DNA from: Catelliglobosispora koreensis DSM 44566
Lineage (GTDB): Bacteria; Actinomycetota; Actinomycetes; Mycobacteriales; Micromonosporaceae
Length of the DNA: 64,000 nt
Reading direction: 5' to 3'
Assembly (NCBI RefSeq): GCF_000379685.1
Contig: NZ_KB903289.1
Coordinates: 221,543 to 285,542, forward strand
A program made the position numbers and the translations under genes. Position 1 is the stretch's first letter, and the number at the start of each line of letters is the position of its first letter. The notes under the pieces were generated by a model. That model had not been told where the DNA came from. It searched no databases and saw nothing but the letters and a program-made list of their open reading frames with translations. Shown piece by piece: positions 45,303-57,283 of this stretch.

Positions 45303-45893
45303 TTAAAGCGAAGCGACGTAGTCCTTGCACACCTGATAGTCAGGCAGCAGGCCCCGCTCAGCAGCCTGTTCCAGCGTGGGAGCCTCGGCATCGCGCGGAG
45401 ACAGCTGCGGGTTGTCCACCGGCCACTTGATGGCGACCTGAGGGTCGAGCGGGTGCAGCGTGTGTTCCTTAGCCGGGTTATAGACCTCTGAACACAGGTA
45501 GAGCAGAGCCGAATCGTCTTCGAGCGCGCAGATCGCATGACCCAGGCCCTCGCCGAGGTAAATCGCCCGCCGGTCGACCTGGTCCAGCAGCACGGAATCC
45601 CACTTGCCAAACGTCGGCGAGCCGACGCGCAGGTCCACGACGACGTCGAGGAACGAACCGCGCACACACGTCACGTATTTCGCTTGTCCCGCCGGCACTT
45701 CGGCGTAGTGGATGCCCCTGATCACGCCACGCTGCGAAATGGACAGATTCGCCTGACGCAGATCCAGTTTGTGGCCGATCGCCTCGGCGAAGGGCTCAAA
45801 CCGGTACCACTCCATGAATAGACCTCGTGGATCGCCATGCTGGACCGGAGTGATCTCCCAGGCGCCCTCGATCTCCAACTGCCTGTACTTCAT
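45303..45893 (-). CDS. rfbC: dTDP-4-dehydrorhamnose 3,5-epimerase
   Basis: 196 residues. Active-site features: the base His in RGIHYAEVP near 60-68 and the LYLCSEVYNPAKE segment in the cupin sheet. Converts dTDP-4-keto-6-deoxyglucose to the L-rhamnose form before RfbD. Its ATG is 6 bp after the rfbA stop, so the two form an operon divergent from rfbB. Confidence 0.95.
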   Translation of the reverse strand: MKYRQLEIEGAWEITPVQHGDPRGLFMEWYRFEPFAEAIGHKLDLRQANLSISQRGVIRGIHYAEVPAGQAKYVTCVRGSFLDVVVDLRVGSPTFGKWDSVLLDQVDRRAIYLGEGLGHAICALEDDSALLYLCSEVYNPAKEHTLHPLDPQVAIKWPVDNPQLSPRDAEAPTLEQAAERGLLPDYQVCKDYVASL

Positions 45894-45899
45894 GCGCGC

Positions 45900-46763
45900 T
45901 TAGCCTTCCAGCAGGTCCATCAAGTATGTGCCATATCCGCTCTTGACCAGGGGCTCAGCCAGCCGGCTCAGCTGCTGATCGTCGATGAGCCCGGCTCGCC
46001 AGGCGACCTCCTCGATACAGCCAATCTTGAAGCCCTGGCGTTCCTCGATCACGCGGACGTATTCGGAAGCCTGCATCATCGAGTTCACGGTGCCGGTGTC
46101 CAGCCACGCCGTGCCGCGGTCAAGCACGGTGACGTGCAAGGTGCCGCGGCGCAGGTATTCGGCGTTGACCGCCGTGATTTCCAGTTCGCCCCGGGCGCTC
46201 GGCTTGAGGTCGCGGGCGATGGACACCACGTCATTGTCGTAGAAGTACAGGCCGGGCACGGCATAGCGCGAACGCGGCGCGAGCGGTTTCTCCTCGATCG
46301 AGAGGACCTGGCCGCTCGGGGCGAACTCGACGACACCATATTCACGCGGGTTGGCGACCGGGTAGGCGAAGATCCGCCCGCCCTTGAGGTCACTGTGCGT
46401 GCTGAGCTGGGTGCCCAGGCCGCCGCCGTGGAAGATGTTGTCGCCCAGGATCAGACCCGCCCCCTGGTCGCCGATGAAGTCGGCACCGATCACGAAAGCC
46501 TGGGCGATGCCCTCGGGACGGGGCTGGGTCGCGTATTCGAGCCGAAGCCCGAGTTCCTGCCCGTCGCCGAGCAGCCGTTTGAATTGCGCCTCATCCTCGG
46601 GGGTGGTGATGATGAGAATCTCGTGAATCCCCGACATGATCAGCGTCGTGAGGGGGTAGTAGACCATCGGCTTGTCGTAGATCGGCATGAGCTGCTTAGA
46701 CACAGCTTTCGTTACCGGCCACAACCTCGACCCGGTCCCACCCGCCAGGAGTATTCCGCGCAT
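45900..46763 (-). CDS. rfbA: Glucose-1-phosphate thymidylyltransferase
   Basis: 287 residues. N-terminal [17 protein letters not shown] (3-19) is the nucleotide-binding signature, followed by [16 protein letters not shown]. Makes dTDP-glucose, the first step of dTDP-rhamnose. Starts at ATG 46763, 60 bp from rfbB. Confidence 0.96.
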
Positions 46764-46786
46764 GGTGGCCTAGCTTAACCAGCAGC

Positions 46787-46814
46787 TTGGAACTCTCTGG
46801 GGTCAGGCTAAACT
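46787..46814 (+). promoter_or_regulatory. Promoter of the rfbB operon
   Basis: -35 TTGGAA (46787-46792), 16-bp spacer, -10 TAAACT (46809-46814), nine bases before the rfbB GTG: leaderless or nearly so. It lies in the 60-bp gap with divergent rfbA. Confidence 0.6.
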
Positions 46815-46823
46815 CCACGTCTT

Positions 46824-47801
46824 GTGAGGATCCTCGTTACCGGCGGCGCCGGATTCATTGGCTCGGAATACGTAAGAACCGTTCTGAACGACCCCCAGGC
46901 GGATGTTTCAGTAACTGTGTTCGATAAGCTGACATACTCCGGCAATTTGGCCAATCTTGATCCGGTCGCCGAGGACTCTCGCTACACCTTCTTTCAGGGC
47001 GACATCTGTGATCCGGAGGCTGTCGACGCGGCCGCGGCTGGTCAGGACGCCATCGTTCACTTCGCCGCCGAGTCGCATGTAGACCGCTCGATCGCCGGTG
47101 CCGGGCCCTTCGTGGTAACCAATGTTGTCGGTACTCAGGTCCTCCTCGACGCGGCGCACCGCCACGGCACGGGCCGCTTCCTGCACGTGTCGACCGACGA
47201 GGTCTACGGCTCGATCGACGAGGGCGAGTGGACCGAGGACTACCCGCTCATGCCGAACTCGCCTTACTCGGCCTCCAAGGCGAGCTCAGACCTGCTCGCG
47301 CTGGCCTACCACCGCACGCACAAGCTCGACGTCGTGGTGACCCGCTGCTCCAACAACTACGGTCCGTACCAGTTCCCGGAGAAGGTCATCCCGCTGTTCG
47401 TCAGCAACCTGCTCGACGGGCACCAGGTGCCGCTCTACGGCGACGGTGGCAACGTGCGTGACTGGCTGCACGTGGCCGACCACGTGCAGGGCATCTCGCT
47501 CGCCCTGGCCAAGGGCCGTGCTGGCGAGGTTTACAACATCGGCGGTGGAACCGAACTGTCCAACAAGCAGCTCACCGAGAAGCTGCTCGAAGCCTGCGGC
47601 GTTGGCTGGGAAATGGTGCGTCAGGTGGAAGACCGCAAGGGCCACGACCGCCGTTACGCCATCGACTGCACGAAGATCTCCACGGAACTCGGCTATGAGC
47701 CGCGCATGTCCTTTGAGGCCGGCCTCAAGGACACCGTCGCCTGGTACCGGGAAAACCGGGCCTGGTGGGAGCCACTCAAGAAGCGGGCAGCCCTATCATG
47801 A
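46824..47801 (+). CDS. rfbB: dTDP-glucose 4,6-dehydratase
   Basis: 325 residues of the extended SDR family. NAD-binding GGAGFIGSEY (7-16), catalytic Thr in VSTDEVYG, and Tyr-Lys in SPYSASKASSD. Forms dTDP-4-keto-6-deoxyglucose, the rhamnose precursor. GTG start at 46824. Its TGA overlaps the ATG of a 25-codon ORF. Confidence 0.97.
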   Translation: MRILVTGGAGFIGSEYVRTVLNDPQADVSVTVFDKLTYSGNLANLDPVAEDSRYTFFQGDICDPEAVDAAAAGQDAIVHFAAESHVDRSIAGAGPFVVTNVVGTQVLLDAAHRHGTGRFLHVSTDEVYGSIDEGEWTEDYPLMPNSPYSASKASSDLLALAYHRTHKLDVVVTRCSNNYGPYQFPEKVIPLFVSNLLDGHQVPLYGDGGNVRDWLHVADHVQGISLALAKGRAGEVYNIGGGTELSNKQLTEKLLEACGVGWEMVRQVEDRKGHDRRYAIDCTKISTELGYEPRMSFEAGLKDTVAWYRENRAWWEPLKKRAALS

Positions 47802-47875
47802 ACGAGGGCTTGCCCGAGTTCATCACGGGGCACAGTTCTGGCGCCAGTGCCGACCGAAGGGAGGCGCTGGCGTGA
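47798..47875 (+). CDS. Putative 25-codon coupled ORF between rfbB and rfbD
   Basis: ATG 47798 overlaps the rfbB stop (ATGA) and its own TGA (47873-47875) overlaps the rfbD start (GTGA). The peptide begins MNEGLPEFITGHSSG and is hydrophilic. The double overlap would couple translation of rfbB to rfbD across the 70-bp gap. No homologue recalled; the peptide itself may have no function. Confidence 0.4.
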   Translation: MNEGLPEFITGHSSGASADRREALA

Positions 47876-48717
47876 AGTGGCTCGTCACCGGCGCGGGAGG
47901 CATGCTCGGGCATGACCTGCTGAAGGTGCTGGCGCACGAGGACGTCACGGCGCTGACCCGCTCGCAGCTCGACATCGCCGACCCGGCCGCGGTCAGCCAA
48001 GCCGTCGCGGGCCACGACATCGTCATCAACGCGGCCGCGTGGACTGACGTTGACGGTGCCGAGACCGCCGAGGAACAGGCGACGCTGATCAACGGCGTCG
48101 CCGTTGGCTATCTCGCGCAGGCGTGCGAAGCCAACGGCGCCAAGCTTCTTCAGGTGTCCACGGACTACGTCCTCAATGGACACGCGACGTCGCCTTATCC
48201 GGAAGACGCGCCCACCGGGCCGCTGAACGCTTACGGGCGGGGCAAGCTCGTGGGTGAGACGGCGGCGCTGTCCATCGCGGGCGGTTATGTCATCCGCACC
48301 GAGTGGCTCTATGGCGAACACGGCAAGAACTTTGTCTCCACGATGCTGAAACTGTCCGCGCAGCGGGAGTTCCTCGATGTCGTCGACGATCAGCTGGGCC
48401 AGCCGACGTGGTCGCTGGCGCTCGCGGAACAGCTTGTGGCCCTTGGGCTTAGCGATGCCCCGCCCGGGGTTTATCACGGCACGGCGGCTGGAGAGGTGAC
48501 GTGGCACGGCTTGGCGCAGGCGGTGTTCTCGCTCGCTGGCCTTGACCCGCAACGGATCCGGCCGGTCAGCTCCAGTGCGTTTCCCCGCCCCGCGCCACGG
48601 CCGTCCTATAGCGTGCTCGGCCACGGCAGGTGGCTAGCGGCCGGGCTGGCGCCCCAAGCGCCGTGGGAGGATCAGCTCAAGGCGGCGCTGCCCGCTCTCC
48701 TGAGCCAGGCGAGGTAA
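47872..48717 (+). CDS. rfbD: dTDP-4-dehydrorhamnose reductase
   Basis: 281 residues, SDR fold. NADPH-binding TGAGGMLGHDLL (5-16) and the YxxxK segment in NAYGRGKLVGE. Last step to dTDP-L-rhamnose. GTG at 47872 with GAAGGGAGG (47856-47864); in-frame residues upstream belong to rfbB in another frame. Followed after 4 bp by the flippase gene. Confidence 0.94.
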   Translation: MKWLVTGAGGMLGHDLLKVLAHEDVTALTRSQLDIADPAAVSQAVAGHDIVINAAAWTDVDGAETAEEQATLINGVAVGYLAQACEANGAKLLQVSTDYVLNGHATSPYPEDAPTGPLNAYGRGKLVGETAALSIAGGYVIRTEWLYGEHGKNFVSTMLKLSAQREFLDVVDDQLGQPTWSLALAEQLVALGLSDAPPGVYHGTAAGEVTWHGLAQAVFSLAGLDPQRIRPVSSSAFPRPAPRPSYSVLGHGRWLAAGLAPQAPWEDQLKAALPALLSQAR

Positions 48718-48721
48718 TCAC

Positions 48722-49993
48722 GTGACGACACAGGCCGCCGAGCCAACGGTGCTGAGCAAGAAAAGCATGACCGGCACCATCTGGGTGGCCGGTGGCTTAG
48801 GCATCCTTGGCGCGGCGGGCTACGTGTTCCTCACCGTCACCGCGGGAGTACCAGGCTATGCCGCCGCGTTGGCCAGCCTCTATCTGCTGACCGCGATCGT
48901 CGGCCCCGGCGTTTTCGGTGCGCTGGAACTGGAAACCAGCCGTCTCGTCGCCCACAGGGGCGCGACCGCTGCAGGCGCTGGGGCGGTGACCCGGCAACTG
49001 GGCCTGCTTTCCGCGAGCGTGCTCGGCGTCGTGCTGATCGTCCTGTTAGCACTGTCGCCTGTGCTCGTTCCCCGGGTCTTCAACGGCAACGTGGCGTTGC
49101 TCGGCAGCTTGTGCGCCATCGCGGTCGGCTACGCCGTCATGGCGTTCCCGCGCGGTGTGTTCGCCGGGCAGCAGAAGCTCAACGGTTTCGCGCTGACCTT
49201 GGTCGCCGAAGGGTTGCTGCGCCTCATCCCGACGCTTCTGTTTTTCGCCCTCGGGGTGAAGGCCGCCTCAGCGTATGGCTGGGTGTGGGGGCTCGCCCCG
49301 CTCGCCGCCGCTTTGGTCAGCCTCAAGTGGGTGTGGCCGGACCGTTCCGGGCCGCGCACGCCGTGGCGTGAGCTCATCAGCGCCGTGGGCTGGCTGATGG
49401 CCTCATCGTTCCTCGCCCTCGGCATGGCCAATCTGGGCCCGGTCATCACGACCGCTCTTCTCACCGAAGACGTTCAGCGCGCTGGTGTTTTCGCGTTCGT
49501 CTTCGTGCTGTTCCGGATTCCGCACTTCATCTTCGTCAGCCTGCAAACCGTGCTGCTGCCGATGTTCAGCCGGGCCGCCGCCCGCGGTGATGTCGCCGGG
49601 CTCCGCAAGGCCATCAAGCAAGCCATTCTCATCGTGGTCGGCTTCGGCCTGCTTTCCGGTGCCGTCATTCTCGTGGCCGCACCGTACATTGTGGACTTTG
49701 TCTTTAAGCCCGGGCACAACCTTTCCTTTGGTGTCATGGCTTTGCTCGCCCTGGGGACAGCGGCCTTCATGCTCGTGCAGCAGGTGCTGCAGCAAGGGTT
49801 GCTTTCGGTGGCCGGGCACCGCTGGGTGGCTGTCGCCTGGTTCTGCGGGATGATCGCGTTCGGCGCCTCGTTCCTGCTGCCCATCGACCCGGTGGACGCC
49901 GCGATAGTGGCGCAGTACACGGGCGTCGCCGTCACTGGCATACTGCTGATCTGCGGGCTTCGCTCGTCATTCAGGAAGGCAAACGGAGCATGA
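48722..49993 (+). CDS. Polysaccharide flippase-like membrane protein (Wzx/MOP type)
   Basis: 423 residues with about 12 helices and a MOP-superfamily appearance (TGTIWVAGGLGILGAAGYVFLT start; repeated GVFAFVFVLFRIPHFIF). Would flip a polyprenyl-diphosphate-linked glycan across the membrane. GTG start with GCGAGGTAA. It overlaps the GT2 gene by four bases. Confidence 0.83.
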   Translation: MTTQAAEPTVLSKKSMTGTIWVAGGLGILGAAGYVFLTVTAGVPGYAAALASLYLLTAIVGPGVFGALELETSRLVAHRGATAAGAGAVTRQLGLLSASVLGVVLIVLLALSPVLVPRVFNGNVALLGSLCAIAVGYAVMAFPRGVFAGQQKLNGFALTLVAEGLLRLIPTLLFFALGVKAASAYGWVWGLAPLAAALVSLKWVWPDRSGPRTPWRELISAVGWLMASSFLALGMANLGPVITTALLTEDVQRAGVFAFVFVLFRIPHFIFVSLQTVLLPMFSRAAARGDVAGLRKAIKQAILIVVGFGLLSGAVILVAAPYIVDFVFKPGHNLSFGVMALLALGTAAFMLVQQVLQQGLLSVAGHRWVAVAWFCGMIAFGASFLLPIDPVDAAIVAQYTGVAVTGILLICGLRSSFRKANGA

Positions 49994-51018
49994 CTGAAGG
50001 ACTCCCCAGGGTCACCGCGATCGTGCTGGCTTACGCCACCGAGCCGTGGCTGCCGCGGTGCGTAGAAGCCTTGCTCGCTTCTGAGAAGGCCGCCGTCGAT
50101 GTCATCGTCGTCGACAACGGCTGCACCAATGACGACGTGGAGAACCTGCGCGGCGTTCCCGGCGTGACCGTGCTGGATCCGGGAGCCAATCTCGGCTTCG
50201 CGGCCGGCTGCAATTACGGGGCGGAACGCGCTACGGGCGATTTCATCGCATTGGTGAACAACGATGCGATTGTTGAGCCGACCACCATCGCGTCCCTCGT
50301 GTCCGAGGCGTCCGCTCCTGGCGTCGGCATCGCCGGGGCAAGTGTCCGGCTGTCCGAGGACCCGAATCTGATCAACTCCGCCGGCAACCCGATGCACGTG
50401 CTCGGCTTGAGCTGGGCCGGGCGGATGGGGCAGACCGAGCACTTGACGGCGCCGCAAGACGTGACGATCGCCAGCGGCGCGTGCCAGGTCACCTCCAAAG
50501 CGCACTGGCAGCGCCTCGGCGGATTCGATCCCGAATACTTCATGTACCACGAGGACGCGGAGCTTTCGATCCGCACGTGGCGTCAGGGTTTGCGCGTGGT
50601 TTACGTGCCGGACGCCATCGCGGTGCACCGCTATGAGTTTTCCCGTAACTCGCGCAAGTTCTACTACATCGAGCGCAACCGGCTGCTCCTGCTCGGCACC
50701 ATCTGGGGTGGACGGTCGCTTCTCGTGCTGTCTCCTGCTCTCCTCAGCCTTGAGGCGGCGATGTTCTTGCTGTCGATCAAGCAGGGCTGGGTGCGGGAGA
50801 AGGTGCGCGGCTGGGGCTGGCTCTGGAAGAACCGGGGTCACCTGCGCAGCCGCCGCAAAGCCCTCAAGGCCGAGAAGGCCGTCAGCGACCGCGTATGGAT
50901 GCGGCAGATCCTGACGTCCCGGCTTGAGGTCGGTGCTGAGCTCGCCCCCGCTGCCCTGGTCAAGCCACTAAATGTGGTGATGTCCGGTTACTGGGGAATC
51001 GCACGGCACTTGATTTAG
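49990..51018 (+). CDS. GT2 glycosyltransferase (rhamnosyltransferase-like)
   Basis: 342 residues. GT-A fold of family 2: VIVVDNGCTND near 37-47, NLGFAAGCNYG, the VNNDA DXD-equivalent near 90-94, and MYHEDAELSIRTWRQG. The pattern is that of rhamnosyltransferases (WbbL type) that use dTDP-rhamnose, in line with the rfb genes; this is inference. A hydrophobic C-terminal part may bind the membrane. Confidence 0.87.
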   Translation: MTEGLPRVTAIVLAYATEPWLPRCVEALLASEKAAVDVIVVDNGCTNDDVENLRGVPGVTVLDPGANLGFAAGCNYGAERATGDFIALVNNDAIVEPTTIASLVSEASAPGVGIAGASVRLSEDPNLINSAGNPMHVLGLSWAGRMGQTEHLTAPQDVTIASGACQVTSKAHWQRLGGFDPEYFMYHEDAELSIRTWRQGLRVVYVPDAIAVHRYEFSRNSRKFYYIERNRLLLLGTIWGGRSLLVLSPALLSLEAAMFLLSIKQGWVREKVRGWGWLWKNRGHLRSRRKALKAEKAVSDRVWMRQILTSRLEVGAELAPAALVKPLNVVMSGYWGIARHLI

Positions 51019-51075
51019 CATCCCATCCGCGAACTGGTTAGCATGGCCGGCGACCCTGAGTGCGAAAGATTGCAG

Positions 51076-51765
51076 ATGACATCAACTAACGACGATACGT
51101 GGATACTCATCCCCGTCTACAACGAGGCACCGGTAATCGCCGATGTCGTTGACGAGGTGCTGGCAACGTTTCCTAACGTCGTCTGCGTCGACGACGGAAG
51201 CCGCGACGGCTCCTCCGCCCAAGTCCTTCGCACCAAGGCTCATCTGGTGCGCCATCCCATCAACATGGGGCAGGGCGCCGCGTTGCAGACCGCGCTCAAA
51301 TACGCCCTCAACCGGCAGGGCGCGAAGTACTTCATCACCTTCGACGCCGACGGTCAGCACCGGGTGGAAGACGCCCAGAAGATGCTTGAGGTCGCCCGCA
51401 GCGGTGCGGCCCAGATCGTCATCGGCTCACGCTTCCTGGAGCAGGTGAAGAACGTCCCGTGGATTCGCCGCCTGATGCTGCGCACGGTGGCCTGGCTCGA
51501 TCCGTCATCGCGCAAGCTCGGTCTCACCGATGCCCACAACGGTCTGCGGGTCCTGAGCCGCGAGCCGGCCGAAGGCCTGAAGATCACGATGAACGGCATG
51601 GCCCACGGCACCGAAATCATCTCGCTGTTCACCCGCGGCGGCTGGACCGTCAAAGAGGTTCCGGTCACGGTGCTCTACACCGAATACTCCCGGGCCAAGG
51701 GTCAGTCCCTGATGAACGGGGTCAACATCCTGTTCGACCTGTTCTTCTCGAAGCGAGGCAAGTGA
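51076..51765 (+). CDS. GT2 polyprenyl-phosphate glycosyltransferase-like enzyme
   Basis: 229 residues from ATG 51076 (an ATG at 51043 would add 11; neither has a strong Shine-Dalgarno). The DPM1-like pattern is clear: ILIPVYNEAPVIADVV, CVDDGSRDGSS, MGQGAALQTAL, FDADGQH and GSRFLE. Such enzymes transfer a sugar from a nucleotide donor to polyprenyl phosphate. No C-terminal helices are present. The gene overlaps DUF2304 by one base, suggesting that DUF2304 supplies the membrane part. Confidence 0.87.
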   Translation: MTSTNDDTWILIPVYNEAPVIADVVDEVLATFPNVVCVDDGSRDGSSAQVLRTKAHLVRHPINMGQGAALQTALKYALNRQGAKYFITFDADGQHRVEDAQKMLEVARSGAAQIVIGSRFLEQVKNVPWIRRLMLRTVAWLDPSSRKLGLTDAHNGLRVLSREPAEGLKITMNGMAHGTEIISLFTRGGWTVKEVPVTVLYTEYSRAKGQSLMNGVNILFDLFFSKRGK

Positions 51766-52169
51766 TGGCCCAGATCTGGATCAAGATCCTTCTCATCGCG
51801 CTGGTGCTTGTCGCGCTGCTGTTCTTCGTGCGCCGCGAGCACGGTCACAAGCTTCAGGCCAACAAGCGCATCGGCTTCATCCTGTTCATCGGCATGAACA
51901 TCTACGCGATCGCCCGCCCGCAGGACGTCACCTGGGTGGCCCAGCAACTCGGCGTCGGCCGTGGTGCTGACCTCATCCTCTACCTGCTGGTCATCACGTT
52001 CGTCTTCGCGGTGTTCAACTTCTACCTCAAGATGCGCGAGGCCGACCGCCGCGTGACCGAGCTGGCCCGTGCCATCGCGGTCCGTGACGCGGAGTTGGTC
52101 AACCGCGAGCGCGGGCTGCTCTTCGAGTGGTCAGCAAACAGCCCGGAACAGGCAAGGAACGCTGAGTGA
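51765..52169 (+). CDS. DUF2304 membrane protein
   Basis: 134 residues with three helices (IWIKILLIALVLVALLFFV, RIGFILFIGMNIYAIA and LILYLLVITFVFAVFNFYL), then a charged helix. DUF2304 genes occur next to GT2 polyprenyl-phosphate transferases in many bacteria, as here. A role as membrane partner or flippase for the lipid-linked sugar is inference. TGATG overlap upstream, GTGA overlap downstream. Confidence 0.85.
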   Translation: MAQIWIKILLIALVLVALLFFVRREHGHKLQANKRIGFILFIGMNIYAIARPQDVTWVAQQLGVGRGADLILYLLVITFVFAVFNFYLKMREADRRVTELARAIAVRDAELVNRERGLLFEWSANSPEQARNAE

Positions 52170-54046
52170 GCACGATCAGCGCCGGGGTTCCGGCCGCTGA
52201 TACCGAGGCTTCGCCCGCGCCGCCGAAACGCCCCTCGTGGCTGCTGTCGCCAGCGGTCATGGCGGTCGCGGCGTGGGCCATCGCGACCCCGCTCGCCTTC
52301 GCCGTGCCCCGCATGCTCGCCTTCAACGGTGCGGGGCAACGGTCGTGGGCCGGTCCGATCGCGGCTATCCTGGCCGCCGCCGTGGTGCTCTTCGTCATCG
52401 TCCGGCGCACGGCACCGGGCTGGCTCGCGGGACTGACCGCCGGGCTGCTCGCCGCCTGGGTGGTGCTGATGCACGGCACGATCACCCGGGGTACGCCCTT
52501 CCCGATGTTTGGCCTTCTTGGTGACTCCGGCCGGATAACAGCCATGGCCACGCGGTACTCCGTAGAGGTCGCCAGTTCCGACGCGTGGATCAAGGGACTG
52601 CCCGGCGAATATCCTCCGCTGTTCCCGTGGCTCATCGGGCGCACGGCGTCGCTTTTGGACGTTCCCGCGTGGAGCATCGTCGGCGCGGCCGAAGGTCTCG
52701 CGACCGGTGGCGCGATCGTGGCCGCTTTCCTGATGTGGCAACGGCTCGTGCCCGCGTGGGCGGCGCTGCTGACGTCGCTGGCCACCTTCATGACGTTCGC
52801 CAACTTCGCCAAGTCGTACGAGCTGATCACCTTGCTGGTGCTCATCCCCTGGACTCTGGCTGTATTCGGCCGCCCCGACCGGGGCCGCCTGCACTGGATC
52901 CCGGCGGGAATCGTTGGCGGGCTTATCTTCCTGACCTACTACGGCTGGTTCGTCTTCGCCCTCATCGGCGCCGTCGCCTTGCTCGTCGCGACGTGGCGGC
53001 AAGAGGCCGCCAAACGAGCCTTCCTGCTCTACCTGGCGAAGGTGGCCGCGGTCGCGCTAGTTCTGTCGTCGTGGTTCATCGTCCCGTATTTCTACGCCCG
53101 CTTCACGATGGGCTCGGAGATGCTGGGCGACCTTTACGGCTCGCCCGAGTTGTTCACCGGGTTCTTCCCGTTCCTGGAACTGTCCGTCATCGGTGCGGTT
53201 CAGCTCATCGGGCTCGTGGGGATGCTGTGGCTGCGTAACGATGTCTGGTGGGCCAAGGGTCTGCTCTACCTGACCGCCGGTGCCTACATTTACCGCGTCT
53301 TTTACCTGCTTTTCTTCGTGGCCACCTGGCACACGGGCCTCGGGCCTTACGCGGCAAGGCTTTCCAACGCCGCCCTGGCCGCCGCGGGTGCGCTGACGCT
53401 TTTCCACGTGGTGCCGAGATTGTTCAACGCGATGGCGTGGAAGGCGCCCAGGGACGCGCTGGCGCTCGGGCTCACGGTCGCGGTTTCGTGGGCCGGGCTG
53501 ACCTTCACCTTGGCCTGGATCCCCGGACTGGAAGGCCGTTGGGCCAACTACACCGAGCGGGCCTACCGGGAACCACTGCCAGACGGCAGGTACAACACCG
53601 ATTCCATCGCCGAGGAGGAGCGCACCGAATATTTCCCGGTGACGCCGATTCAGCAAGCGGTGGAAAGCGTCTACGGGCCGGGCACACAACGGGTCTCCCT
53701 GTCCATTGACGAACGGCTCTACGCCTATCTGCCGTGGCACGGTTACCTCAACAACGACCGCAACGGTTCGTTCGTGCAGTGGGACAAGCGCTATGCCGAG
53801 CTGCAGAAGCTAGCCGCCACAACGGATCCCACCGCTTTCGCCCGGCGGTCGGCGAACACCGCATACGGCCCGATCGACATCTTCGTGCTGCGGGAGAAGA
53901 CCCCTGACCGGTGGTCCTGGACCGCCGCCAGCGGCTTCAACCAGTCCGATGTGGACCTCGACTTCAGCCGTGCGCAATTCGATCCAGCCCACTGGGTCAT
54001 CTTTGACAGCCTTCCAGAAAACGTCGTAGTAGCGGTCAGGCGATGA
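52166..54046 (+). CDS. GT-C family membrane glycosyltransferase, AftA-like, copy 1
   Basis: 626 residues: about 12 helices in the first 450, then a soluble extracytoplasmic C-terminal domain. The LLGDSGRITAMATRY block near 112-126, with the acidic residue expected in the first loop of GT-C enzymes, PGEYPPLFPW, and C-terminal YGPIDIFVLR match arabinofuranosyltransferase A-type proteins. These use decaprenyl-phosphoryl-arabinose. The donor here may differ. GTG overlaps the DUF2304 stop. Tandem paralogue follows. Confidence 0.78.
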   Translation: MSTISAGVPAADTEASPAPPKRPSWLLSPAVMAVAAWAIATPLAFAVPRMLAFNGAGQRSWAGPIAAILAAAVVLFVIVRRTAPGWLAGLTAGLLAAWVVLMHGTITRGTPFPMFGLLGDSGRITAMATRYSVEVASSDAWIKGLPGEYPPLFPWLIGRTASLLDVPAWSIVGAAEGLATGGAIVAAFLMWQRLVPAWAALLTSLATFMTFANFAKSYELITLLVLIPWTLAVFGRPDRGRLHWIPAGIVGGLIFLTYYGWFVFALIGAVALLVATWRQEAAKRAFLLYLAKVAAVALVLSSWFIVPYFYARFTMGSEMLGDLYGSPELFTGFFPFLELSVIGAVQLIGLVGMLWLRNDVWWAKGLLYLTAGAYIYRVFYLLFFVATWHTGLGPYAARLSNAALAAAGALTLFHVVPRLFNAMAWKAPRDALALGLTVAVSWAGLTFTLAWIPGLEGRWANYTERAYREPLPDGRYNTDSIAEEERTEYFPVTPIQQAVESVYGPGTQRVSLSIDERLYAYLPWHGYLNNDRNGSFVQWDKRYAELQKLAATTDPTAFARRSANTAYGPIDIFVLREKTPDRWSWTAASGFNQSDVDLDFSRAQFDPAHWVIFDSLPENVVVAVRR

Positions 54047-56079
54047 GTGCGCTCAAGGACAAACTGAAAAACCCGGGCCTGCTGGCCACTTTGATCTTCG
54101 TCATCGGCTGCCCTCTGGGCATCTGGGCGACCCGCCTTCCAAAGTGGACCGGCTTCGGCCTGCGCACATGGGCGGTCCCGCTCACGGCCGGCCTCGGCGC
54201 CATGGCCGTCGTCCTCTTCCTCGCCTGGCGCGAACAACGCCGCGTCACTTCCCGCGGTGCCATGCAAGGCGTTGCGGCATCGGGGATCGCTGGCGGATCA
54301 GACCACGGCAAGACGGCACTTGCTGCCACTAAGCCCGCCGGCAGCAAGGGGGTTATCGCTTCCGAGGCTGGCGAAGCGGATGCCAGTCACGCGGAACAGG
54401 CCGCTGCTCAACCAGTCAGCGCGGCGCGAGCAAGTAACCCAACGGCATGGCGCTCTGGGGATTGGGTCGCCGGGTTGGCGGGCGGGGCGTTCGCCGTCTG
54501 GATCTCGATGATTCTGACGGCGGCATTGCGGGGCACACCGTTTCCGTTCAACGGGCTCATCGGCGACGCCGGGCGCCTGGCCGCTATGGCCACGCGCTAC
54601 AGCACGACCTGGGCTAGCTCGGACACGCTGCTTCCGGGCGTGCCCGCTGAGTACCCCCCGATGTTTCCCTGGAGTATCGGCCGCGTAGCCGCGCTGACCG
54701 GGCAAGAGGCCTGGCAGCTCGTCGGGCAGGCCGAAGCCATCTACACCGGGCTGGCTTTGCTCATCGGATTCGTGCTGTGGCAACGGCTTGTCAAGCCGTG
54801 GACGGCACTGGCCGTCACGGTCATCGGGTTCATGGCGTTCGCGATCGCGGCCAAGTCCTATGAGCTGCTGACCCTGATGGCTTTCGTCCCTTGGGTTCTG
54901 GGCACCTTCGGGCGTCCCGAGCGCGGGCGCCTGCACTGGCTGGTTTCCGGGCTCATCGGTGGCCTGATCGTGCTGACCTATTACGGCTGGGTCATTTTCG
55001 GCATCTTCGGCATCCTGGCTCTGCTTGGCCGCAGCTGGTTCCTGGCGGACAACCGCAAGGCCTATCTGCTCTATCTGGCCAAAGTGGCCGGTGTCGCGTT
55101 CGTGGTGTCGAGCTGGTTCATCGTGCCGTTCTTTGTGGCACGCCAGCGATACGGCGGCGCGACCCTCGGCGATCTTTATGGCACGGCGAGCATTCTCGAC
55201 CAGATGTTCCCGTTCCTGGACTTCACGCTCCTCGGCACGGTTCAGCTCATCGGCCTCATCGGGCTGATCTGGTTGCGTGGCAAGCAATGGTGGGCCAGTC
55301 CCCTACTCGCGCTTGTGGTCGGCGCCTACCTCTACCGGGCTGTCACCGCGGTCATGTTCGTGGTGACGGATCACACGATGCTCGGCCAGTACGCGCCGCG
55401 TCTATACACGACGGTGCTTGTGATGGCAGGCGTGCTGACAGTCATTCATTTCGTGCCGTGGCTCATCGAGAAGCTGGACGTCAAGGCACCCGCCTTCGCC
55501 GGCCTGATCGCGCTGACCGTCGCGGTCGCCTTCTCTGGCTTCACGTTCACGAAGAACTGGATGCCGAAGCTGGGCGGGGTTTACGCGTCCTATACCGAGC
55601 GTGCCTATCTCGAACCATTGCCAGACGGGCGCTATCTGGTTGACACGACCGGGGAGAACCCGACGCCGTGGTTCCCGGTCAAGCCGATCGAGGACGCGGT
55701 CGAGAAGGTCTACGGCGCTGACCCCCAACGGGTCGCGCTGACAGCCGATGAGCGGTTGTTCTCCTACCTGCCGTGGCCGGGTTACCTGGGCACGGACTTG
55801 GGCGGAGCCTTGGCCAATACGTTCGAGCGGCACGCCGAGCTCGACAAGCTTGCCGCCACAACGGATCCCGCGGCCTTCAGCCAGGCGTCAGCCAACACGC
55901 GCTATGGCCCGATCGACATCTTCGTGCTGAAGAAGAAGGACGGACTGTGGACCTGGACGACCCACATGGGTTACTCCAAGGCACCCAAGACGGTCAGCTT
56001 CTCCCCCGCCCAGTTCGACCCGAAGCTATGGGCGGTCACGGATTTGCCGGAAGACTACGTGGTAGCGGTGCGTCTTTAG
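54043..56079 (+). CDS. GT-C family membrane glycosyltransferase, AftA-like, copy 2
   Basis: 678 residues, paralogue of the gene before (LIGDAGRLAAMATRY, AEYPPMFPW, TRYGPIDIFVLKKK). It differs by a 70-residue hydrophilic Ala/Gly/Ser-rich insertion at about 66-136 between helices 2 and 3, which should face the cytoplasm. ATG overlaps the stop of copy 1 (ATGA). The 3' end overlaps the convergent narK by 44 bp. End of the glycan operon. Confidence 0.78.
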   Translation: MSALKDKLKNPGLLATLIFVIGCPLGIWATRLPKWTGFGLRTWAVPLTAGLGAMAVVLFLAWREQRRVTSRGAMQGVAASGIAGGSDHGKTALAATKPAGSKGVIASEAGEADASHAEQAAAQPVSAARASNPTAWRSGDWVAGLAGGAFAVWISMILTAALRGTPFPFNGLIGDAGRLAAMATRYSTTWASSDTLLPGVPAEYPPMFPWSIGRVAALTGQEAWQLVGQAEAIYTGLALLIGFVLWQRLVKPWTALAVTVIGFMAFAIAAKSYELLTLMAFVPWVLGTFGRPERGRLHWLVSGLIGGLIVLTYYGWVIFGIFGILALLGRSWFLADNRKAYLLYLAKVAGVAFVVSSWFIVPFFVARQRYGGATLGDLYGTASILDQMFPFLDFTLLGTVQLIGLIGLIWLRGKQWWASPLLALVVGAYLYRAVTAVMFVVTDHTMLGQYAPRLYTTVLVMAGVLTVIHFVPWLIEKLDVKAPAFAGLIALTVAVAFSGFTFTKNWMPKLGGVYASYTERAYLEPLPDGRYLVDTTGENPTPWFPVKPIEDAVEKVYGADPQRVALTADERLFSYLPWPGYLGTDLGGALANTFERHAELDKLAATTDPAAFSQASANTRYGPIDIFVLKKKDGLWTWTTHMGYSKAPKTVSFSPAQFDPKLWAVTDLPEDYVVAVRL

Positions 56080-57283
56080 GGTTGCGGAAGGCTAGCCACG
56101 TGAACACCAGCGCGGCGAAGGCCACATCGGACAGCAGCATCAGCCCGATGTCATAGCTGCCCGTGAGGCCATAGATCAGTCCCATGACGAGCGGCGGGAA
56201 GTAGCCCCCGAGGCCACCCGCCGCTCCGACCAAACCGGTGACGGTGCCGACGCGGGCGGGCTCGACAAGCTTGGTGATGAAGGCGAAGACCGCTCCGGTG
56301 CCCAGGCCCAAACCGAACGCCAGCGGGATGTATACCAGCGCGGTGCCAATGTCGGGCTTGGGTGAGAAGGCGGCCGCGATCGCCAGGACACCGGTGATCG
56401 CGAGCGAGGTCATCAGGACCGTACGCGGATGGAACTTGTCAGAAAGCCATCCGCCCACGGGACGGCCGATGACGGCGGCTAAGGCGAAACCTGCCGTGCG
56501 CGCGCCAGCGTCGGTGATGGAGAACCCGTACTCAGACTTCAGCAGCGTCGGCAGATAGGTGGAGAAGGCGACGAACCCGCCGAAGGTCACCGCGTAGAGC
56601 ACCATCATCTGCCACGTGACTTTCAGCTTGAGCGCCGACTTGATCCGCGGCATGGCCGGTTCAGTGGCCGGTTTCCAGGACGCGGCGTTGCGCGCGAACA
56701 ACAGCGCCAGCACGCCGCAAGCGGCAAGGGCGATGGCCACGATGAGATGGGTTTGGAACCGGCCGAACTCGTTCACTATCCGTGGTGTGAAGAAGGCCGA
56801 GAAGGCTGTGCCCGCCATGCCAGCGCCGAAGATGCCGACCGCGGTGCCGCGTGACTCCGGCGGGAACCAGCCGTTGACGAACGGCACACCGGTGGCGAAG
56901 ACCGTGCCGCCGATCCCGAGGAACAGCCCGCCGATAAGCAGTAGTGGGTAGGAGCTCACCGCGCCGACGAACAGCACAGGGGCGATGGTCGCGAAGAGAA
57001 CGATCGCGAAGACGAGCCGTCCACCGAGCTTGTCGGTCAGCGCGCCCACCGGGATGCGGCCGAGTGAGCCAACGAGCACGGGCACGGCGACGAGCAGCGA
57101 GAGGGCGCCGGGCGAGAGCCCCAGATCGGTGGCATAGGACGGTCCTAACGGGCCGATCAGTGACCATGCCCAAAAGCCAATGAAGAAGAACAGCGTCGCC
57201 AACGCCAGCTGAACCCAGGCGGCACCCGGAGTGCGCACCGGCGTGGAGGCGGAACCTGAGCCCGCAGGCCGAGTTCTTTTCAC
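56036..57283 (-). CDS. narK: NarK-type nitrate/nitrite transporter (MFS)
   Basis: 415 residues, 12 helices. The nitrate signature of NarK proteins is represented by GLFLGIGGTVFATGVPFVNGWFP (about 119-141), and GLVGAAGGLGGYFPPLVMG is the second signature. GTG start at 57283. Divergent from narG with 43 bp between start codons, so the two share control. Imports nitrate and/or exports nitrite for the reductase next door. Confidence 0.92.
   Translation of the reverse strand: MKRTRPAGSGSASTPVRTPGAAWVQLALATLFFFIGFWAWSLIGPLGPSYATDLGLSPGALSLLVAVPVLVGSLGRIPVGALTDKLGGRLVFAIVLFATIAPVLFVGAVSSYPLLLIGGLFLGIGGTVFATGVPFVNGWFPPESRGTAVGIFGAGMAGTAFSAFFTPRIVNEFGRFQTHLIVAIALAACGVLALLFARNAASWKPATEPAMPRIKSALKLKVTWQMMVLYAVTFGGFVAFSTYLPTLLKSEYGFSITDAGARTAGFALAAVIGRPVGGWLSDKFHPRTVLMTSLAITGVLAIAAAFSPKPDIGTALVYIPLAFGLGLGTGAVFAFITKLVEPARVGTVTGLVGAAGGLGGYFPPLVMGLIYGLTGSYDIGLMLLSDVAFAALVFTWLAFRNPKDAPLPRSLPANP

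Follow-up and report, generated by a model that had tools for sequence, protein, structure and literature searches.

A gene cluster at positions 45303-56079 of the window (the whole analysed stretch of 64,000 nucleotides (nt) of Catelliglobosispora koreensis DSM 44566) was considered reasonably probable to be a four-component transmembrane glycosylation system. In it, a PpgS-like GT2 glycosyltransferase with its DUF2304 membrane partner, a second GT2 (GT2a), a Wzx-type flippase and two glycosyltransferases of the GT-C fold (GT-C1 and GT-C2) would attach a short glycan, probably with rhamnose in it, to a wall polymer. All parts of the system lie within 48722-56079. At 51076-56079, four open reading frames on the plus strand encode the PpgS-like GT2, DUF2304, GT-C1 and GT-C2, overlapping by 1, 4 and 4 nt at the junctions TGATG, GTGA and ATGA. 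The sequence-only reading had described this tightly overlapping run of a GT2, a DUF2304 protein and two AftA-like GT-Cs, which the reading frames, the overlaps and the Pfam matches (all above curated cut-offs) confirmed. The module is larger than first noted, as the rhamnose (rml) genes, the flippase and GT2a belong to it, and the wider cluster is conserved elsewhere and is thus more than chance. The flippase and GT2a had been overlooked; with them the module becomes a four-component system with a probable extension of the lipid-linked sugar.

In the proposed sequence of events, the PpgS-like GT2, anchored to the membrane through DUF2304, would move a sugar from a UDP-sugar to polyprenyl phosphate, a step for which homology and linkage argue strongly; by analogy with PpgS and GacI, an N-acetylhexosamine is the most likely sugar. 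On the cytoplasmic face, GT2a would then extend the lipid-monophosphate sugar by one residue, a step with a precedent in lactococcal WpsC, and this residue would probably be rhamnose made by the adjacent rml genes. The Wzx-type protein, judging by family and synteny, would flip the lipid-linked glycan, and the two AftA-fold GT-Cs would transfer it to the wall polymer, perhaps each to an acceptor position of its own. The GT-C fold and the candidate catalytic Asp come from sequence and a structure model, and the donor and acceptor of the GT-Cs were inferred.

The GT2-DUF2304 pair

The PpgS-like GT2 (51076-51765, plus strand, 229 amino acids (aa); an in-frame ATG further upstream, at 51043, could also serve as start), by type a polyprenyl-phosphate sugar synthase, matched PF00535 (87.7 bits) and the PpgS equivalog model NF058614 (317.4 bits, E 4e-95, positions 1-224 of 226). 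The latter score lies below the curated cut-off of 370 bits, and the protein was filed as PpgS-like only. Residues 90-94 read DADGQ and carry the DxDxQ motif, a proposed hallmark of polyisoprenyl-phosphate glycosyltransferases in the work on lactococcal WpsA (PMC10821137). The motif and the PpgS-like match support the earlier suggestion that this GT2 may make a polyprenyl-phosphate sugar. DUF2304 (51765-52169, plus strand, 134 aa; PF10066 94 bits over all 106 positions) is of the GacJ/WpsB/Rv3632 type and is single-copy in the genome. It was modelled as all-helical (helices 2-25, 30-50, 52-62 and 67-124) with modest confidence (predicted local distance difference test (pLDDT) 72, two sequences only), and a search of PDB sequences with it returned nothing but weak, uninformative matches, SecY among them.

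Across 298 genomes of the order, DUF2304 was detected in 112, and a DPM1-type GT2 was adjacent on the same strand in 111 of these. DUF2304 stood directly downstream in all 59 genomes with a PpgS-like GT2 (at least 200 bits). The proposed role of DUF2304 as membrane partner of the GT2 was supported by both counts, and homology and linkage together support a polyprenyl-phosphate sugar synthase pair. Of the 59 genomes that carry a PpgS-like GT2, 27 had no Emb match, so the occurrence of the pair is not bound to arabinogalactan. In the GT2 tree, the window copy clustered with copies of family f13 and one copy of family f15 (support 95/80). The near-constant pairing with GT2 gives a lead to the function of DUF2304, whose name still marks it as a family of unknown role.

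The pairing itself is not new, being present as PpgS/Rv3632 in Mycobacterium tuberculosis and as GacI/GacJ and WpsA/WpsB in streptococci and lactococci; what the analysis adds is a connection from these streptococcal and mycobacterial lipid-sugar synthases with a DUF2304 partner to one conserved actinomycete locus. PpgS/Rv3632/Rv3779 of M. tuberculosis is a published analogue (PMC3485146), with PpgS, Cgp_0393, Cgp_0658 and Cgp_0396 as the corresponding set of Corynebacterium glutamicum (PMC9671496, PMC3485146). As with PpgS (Rv3631) and Rv3632, the PpgS-like GT2 is followed directly by the small membrane protein, and a GT-C would complete the transfer. Unlike the PpgS systems, the window has duplicated GT-Cs of the AftA fold (a comparison that did not include Rv3779 itself), the window genome yielded none of the arabinogalactan genes searched for, and the GT2 scores below the equivalog cut-off. 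In the mycobacterial-type loci L148, L150 and L151, a protein of 447-560 aa with 11-12 predicted helices precedes the GT2.

The two AftA-fold GT-Cs and their donor

GT-C1 (52166-54046, plus strand, 626 aa, candidate catalytic Asp120) and GT-C2 (54043-56079, plus strand, 678 aa, candidate catalytic Asp175) are 54% identical over 540 aa. Both matched AftA_N (28.9 and 45.7 bits, respectively) and AftA_C (26.7 and 29.6 bits) above cut-off, and AftA_N occurred in the window genome only in these two proteins. A nine-sequence GT-C profile matched AftA (PDB 8if8) with E 4e-31 over 580 columns. In the profile alignment, Asp175 of GT-C2, invariant in 21 sequences, aligned with the Asp in the first external loop of AftA, whose catalytic residue was assigned by alignment only. 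The structure model of GT-C2 (pLDDT 84.5, predicted template modelling score 0.85) superposed on AftA with Z 32.6 over 593 residues (root-mean-square deviation 3.7), the next match on the VIA-align list having Z 17.2 (GT-C families not on that list are not thereby excluded). The likeness to AftA thus comprises the fold over 593 residues, the conserved Asp in the first external loop and a YPP motif; the GT-C differs from AftA in being 20% identical, in falling in a separate clade and in that donor pathway genes were not found. In the GT-C tree, the two window proteins paired with each other (100/99) within a clade of Micromonosporaceae GT-Cs that are otherwise single-copy. They are a lineage-specific tandem duplication.

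A role of the GT-Cs as arabinosyltransferases with the donor of AftA, decaprenyl-phosphoryl arabinose, was judged very improbable even with both Pfam domains above cut-off and AftA as the closest structure. The window genome (7.69 Mb, 99.65% complete) had no match to Emb and no DprE1-like protein (best match 41 bits, partial, about 140 residues; DprE2 and Rv3806c were not searched), and the GT-Cs branched outside the canonical, Emb-linked AftA clade with 100/100 support. An arabinose donor was rejected on the missing Emb and DprE1. Since neither was found, the donor is probably not decaprenyl-phosphoryl arabinose, as the sequence-only reading had suggested. Arabinogalactan, for which none of the genes searched for were found in the window genome, is a less likely acceptor than a secondary wall polymer, teichoic-acid-like or other. 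What is new is the coupling of a GT2-DUF2304 pair to two duplicated AftA-fold GT-Cs in such a genome.

A broader proposal is tentative and more doubtful than the scheme for the cluster itself. In actinomycetes without arabinogalactan, AftA-family proteins may not be arabinosyltransferases at all. They may instead move pyranose sugars, or short glycans with rhamnose in them, from polyprenyl monophosphate onto wall polymers of the teichoic type, and the mycobacterial AftA may be a specialised offshoot of an older wall-decorating family. AftA-family enzymes in genomes in which arabinogalactan genes were not found make donor specificity and the origin of a mycobacterial wall-enzyme family testable in soil bacteria. 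Close homologues of the GT-Cs in Micromonosporaceae adjoin teichoic-type genes, namely an ABC-2 type transporter pair and Glyphos_transf; those in Thermomonosporaceae adjoin a GT2-Glyphos_transf fusion. A Glyphos_transf gene is present in the window genome on another contig. In Actinomadura and relatives, the GT-C comes after a fusion of GT2 and CDP-glycerol glycerophosphotransferase of about 1200-1330 aa (L032:215-3835, L041:4665-8663, L043:5234-8815).

The rml-Wzx-GT2a context

Upstream of the pair and on the same strand lie rmlB, rmlD, the flippase gene and GT2a, with rmlA and rmlC on the opposite strand. The flippase (48722-49993, plus strand; PF01943 41 bits), of Wzx/MurJ type and a candidate for the lipid-linked glycan, has homologues in the corresponding cluster of f13, Micromonospora, Lentzea and f10. 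Its gene shares 4 nt with that of GT2a (49990-51018, plus strand; PF13641 83 bits), so that the overlapping run begins further upstream than the four core genes, and 57 nt separate GT2a from the PpgS-like GT2. GT2a is a cytoplasmic GT2 and a candidate extending, possibly rhamnosyl, transferase. The rml genes comprise rmlC (dTDP-4-dehydrorhamnose 3,5-epimerase, 45303-45893, minus strand; PF00908 196 bits), rmlA (glucose-1-phosphate thymidylyltransferase, 45900-46763, minus strand; TIGR01207 437 bits, above cut-off), rmlB (dTDP-glucose 4,6-dehydratase, 46824-47801, plus strand; TIGR01181 440 bits, above cut-off) and rmlD (dTDP-4-dehydrorhamnose reductase, 47872-48717, plus strand; TIGR01214 271 bits, PF04321 292 bits). 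For rmlD, the GTG at 47872 was chosen as the likely start of a reading frame open from 47446.

The f13 genomes keep the order rmlA|rmlB-rmlD-Wzx-GT2a-GT2-DUF2304, with identities to the window proteins of 60-74% for rmlB, rmlD, GT2a and GT2, 38-40% for Wzx and 54-59% for DUF2304. Genomes of genus g4 in the family of the window genome, presumably Micromonospora, have a corresponding gene set but a second GT2 class with DUF2304. Copies of GT2a, 39-62% identical, accompany GT2-DUF2304 pairs in several families. This conserved synteny supports the rhamnose genes as part of the locus, a tie to the module that the sequence-only reading had suggested, and rml-Wzx-GT2a-GT2-DUF2304 emerges as a new conserved actinomycete locus. 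At locus L149, a GT2 33% identical to GT2a and rmlA-CD-B stand beside a PpgS-DUF2304 pair; this locus is like the window in having a second GT2 and rml genes beside the pair. It also resembles the C. glutamicum locus with cgp_0396, with which it may be equated; loss of cgp_0396 blocks phage Cog (PMC9671496).

The closest precedent for an extended lipid-linked sugar is the lactococcal WpsA/B/C/G/J system, in which rhamnose is added to N-acetylglucosamine (GlcNAc)-P-C55 (PMC10821137). There, as proposed here, a GT2-DUF2304 pair puts the first sugar on lipid monophosphate, rhamnose is added by a strain-specific glycosyltransferase, Wzx flips the product and a GT-C attaches it to a wall polymer (PMC10821137). 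In contrast to Wps, the window has only one extending glycosyltransferase, no polymerase was found, and the GT-Cs are AftA-like (WpsJ itself was not compared).

The streptococcal Gac system suggests another arrangement, in which the pair would make a polyprenyl-phosphate monosaccharide, the GT-Cs would add it directly as single-sugar side chains, and GT2a and the rml genes would serve a separate rhamnose glycan made by this cluster. GacI, GacJ, GacK (a Wzx protein) and GacL of Streptococcus pyogenes add single GlcNAc side chains to rhamnan in this way (PMC8035078, PMC8327497), and the component list matches: a GT-A enzyme without membrane helices, a DUF2304 partner, a Wzx-type flippase, a GT-C and a rhamnose context. 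One GT2 product can also feed two transferases, as that of SccN of S. mutans serves SccM and an unknown enzyme (PMC11754754). However, GT2a and Wzx stay with GT2-DUF2304 even without an adjacent GT-C, which fits a shared lipid-linked oligosaccharide better, and GT2a is the only further GT2 for making a polymer. The window also differs from Gac in having two AftA-fold GT-Cs in the place of GacL and an extra GT2a, and no Rgp/Gac-type rhamnan synthesis or ABC export genes were among the identified window neighbours. Single-sugar decoration of this kind was therefore held to be unlikely, though not negligible.

Linkage of the GT-Cs to the pair in relatives

Linkage of the GT-Cs to DUF2304 is loose. 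The GT-C profile gave 36 named loci, and in only two of these, those of Nonomuraea endophytica and Lentzea pudingi, did DUF2304 lie within 9 kb of the GT-C; single-sequence phmmer had found no DUF2304 in the GT-C loci of relatives, and a better profile found only these two. Nonomuraea has GT-C, GT2, DUF2304 and GtrA consecutively. In Lentzea, a stretch of about 11 kb holds GT-C, Wzx, GT2a and the GT2-DUF2304 pair, Wzx and GT2a separating GT-C from DUF2304. An AftA-like GT-C also stands beside PpgS-DUF2304 in genome G177, and near it, across Wzx and GT2a and on the other strand, in G108. Elsewhere, GT2-DUF2304 is flanked by DUF6541 membrane proteins or by no GT-C. The sequence-only reading had made co-occurrence across genomes its test; the GT2-DUF2304 half of that test passed and the GT-C half failed, so obligate linkage of the GT-Cs to DUF2304 was not supported. 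The linkage part was too strict, because the locus numbers of ppgS (Rv3631) and of the GT-C that goes with it in M. tuberculosis, Rv3779, are likewise distant from each other.

Several results weigh against the four-component scheme. The cluster occurs in f13 and Micromonospora without a GT-C, and the GT-C link here may therefore be accidental. The GT-Cs of relatives often adjoin another GT2 of 400-480 aa, which ends in four membrane helices and has DADDSY in place of DxDxQ (L021:6328-7764, L022:10076-11353, L023:10607-11821, L026:9720-10958), so their donor could differ. The sugar of GT2a was guessed from its rml neighbours, the match to the rhamnosyltransferase subfamily TIGR01556 being weak (40 bits, below cut-off). 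N-acetylgalactosamine is not established as the first sugar, because the GT2 falls short of the PpgS cut-off, and no epimerase gene of the Rv3634c type lies next to it (the closest match in the rest of the genome has 40% identity).

Some of these points favour a chance insertion, in which the GT-C pair, served by a different lipid donor, merely came to lie next to an rml-Wzx-GT2a-GT2-DUF2304 locus that is complete without it: DUF2304 is missing from the surroundings of most GT-C homologues, several homologues adjoin the four-helix DADDSY protein, and the f13 and Micromonospora loci lack a GT-C. Against such an insertion, DUF2304/GT-C1 and GT-C1/GT-C2 overlap by 4 nt each, as in a translationally coupled operon, and Nonomuraea, Lentzea, G177 and G108 likewise have AftA-type GT-Cs next to GT2-DUF2304 or close to it. 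Chance insertion was accordingly given a minor share of the probability, and the four-component system remained the preferred reading.

DUF6541 proteins often adjoin GT2-DUF2304 in f15 and may be their GT-C (L130:8675-10684, L131:4820-6769, L132:5618-7666, L144:9202-11316, L157:5061-7037). A relationship of DUF6541 to the window GT-Cs was rejected, as hhalign gave no match (probability 0.4), and DUF6541 was not found in the window genome. In Nonomuraea, a 486 aa protein with nine helices and no Pfam match (L063:12151-13611) follows GtrA and is a possible further GT-C.

A scan for promoters and terminators gave nothing above chance. The cluster was taken to end at 56079 because a minus-strand gene of the major facilitator superfamily (56036-57283), NarK-like by context, and then narGHJI lie downstream; the former converges on the end of GT-C2 with an overlap of 44 nt. 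In the Micromonospora-type loci L153-L156, the gene order is rmlA|rmlB-rmlD-DUF2304-GT2-Wzx-GT2a, and the neighbours are presumably genes of the proteasome pathway, their N-terminal sequences resembling those of pafA, dop and prcAB.

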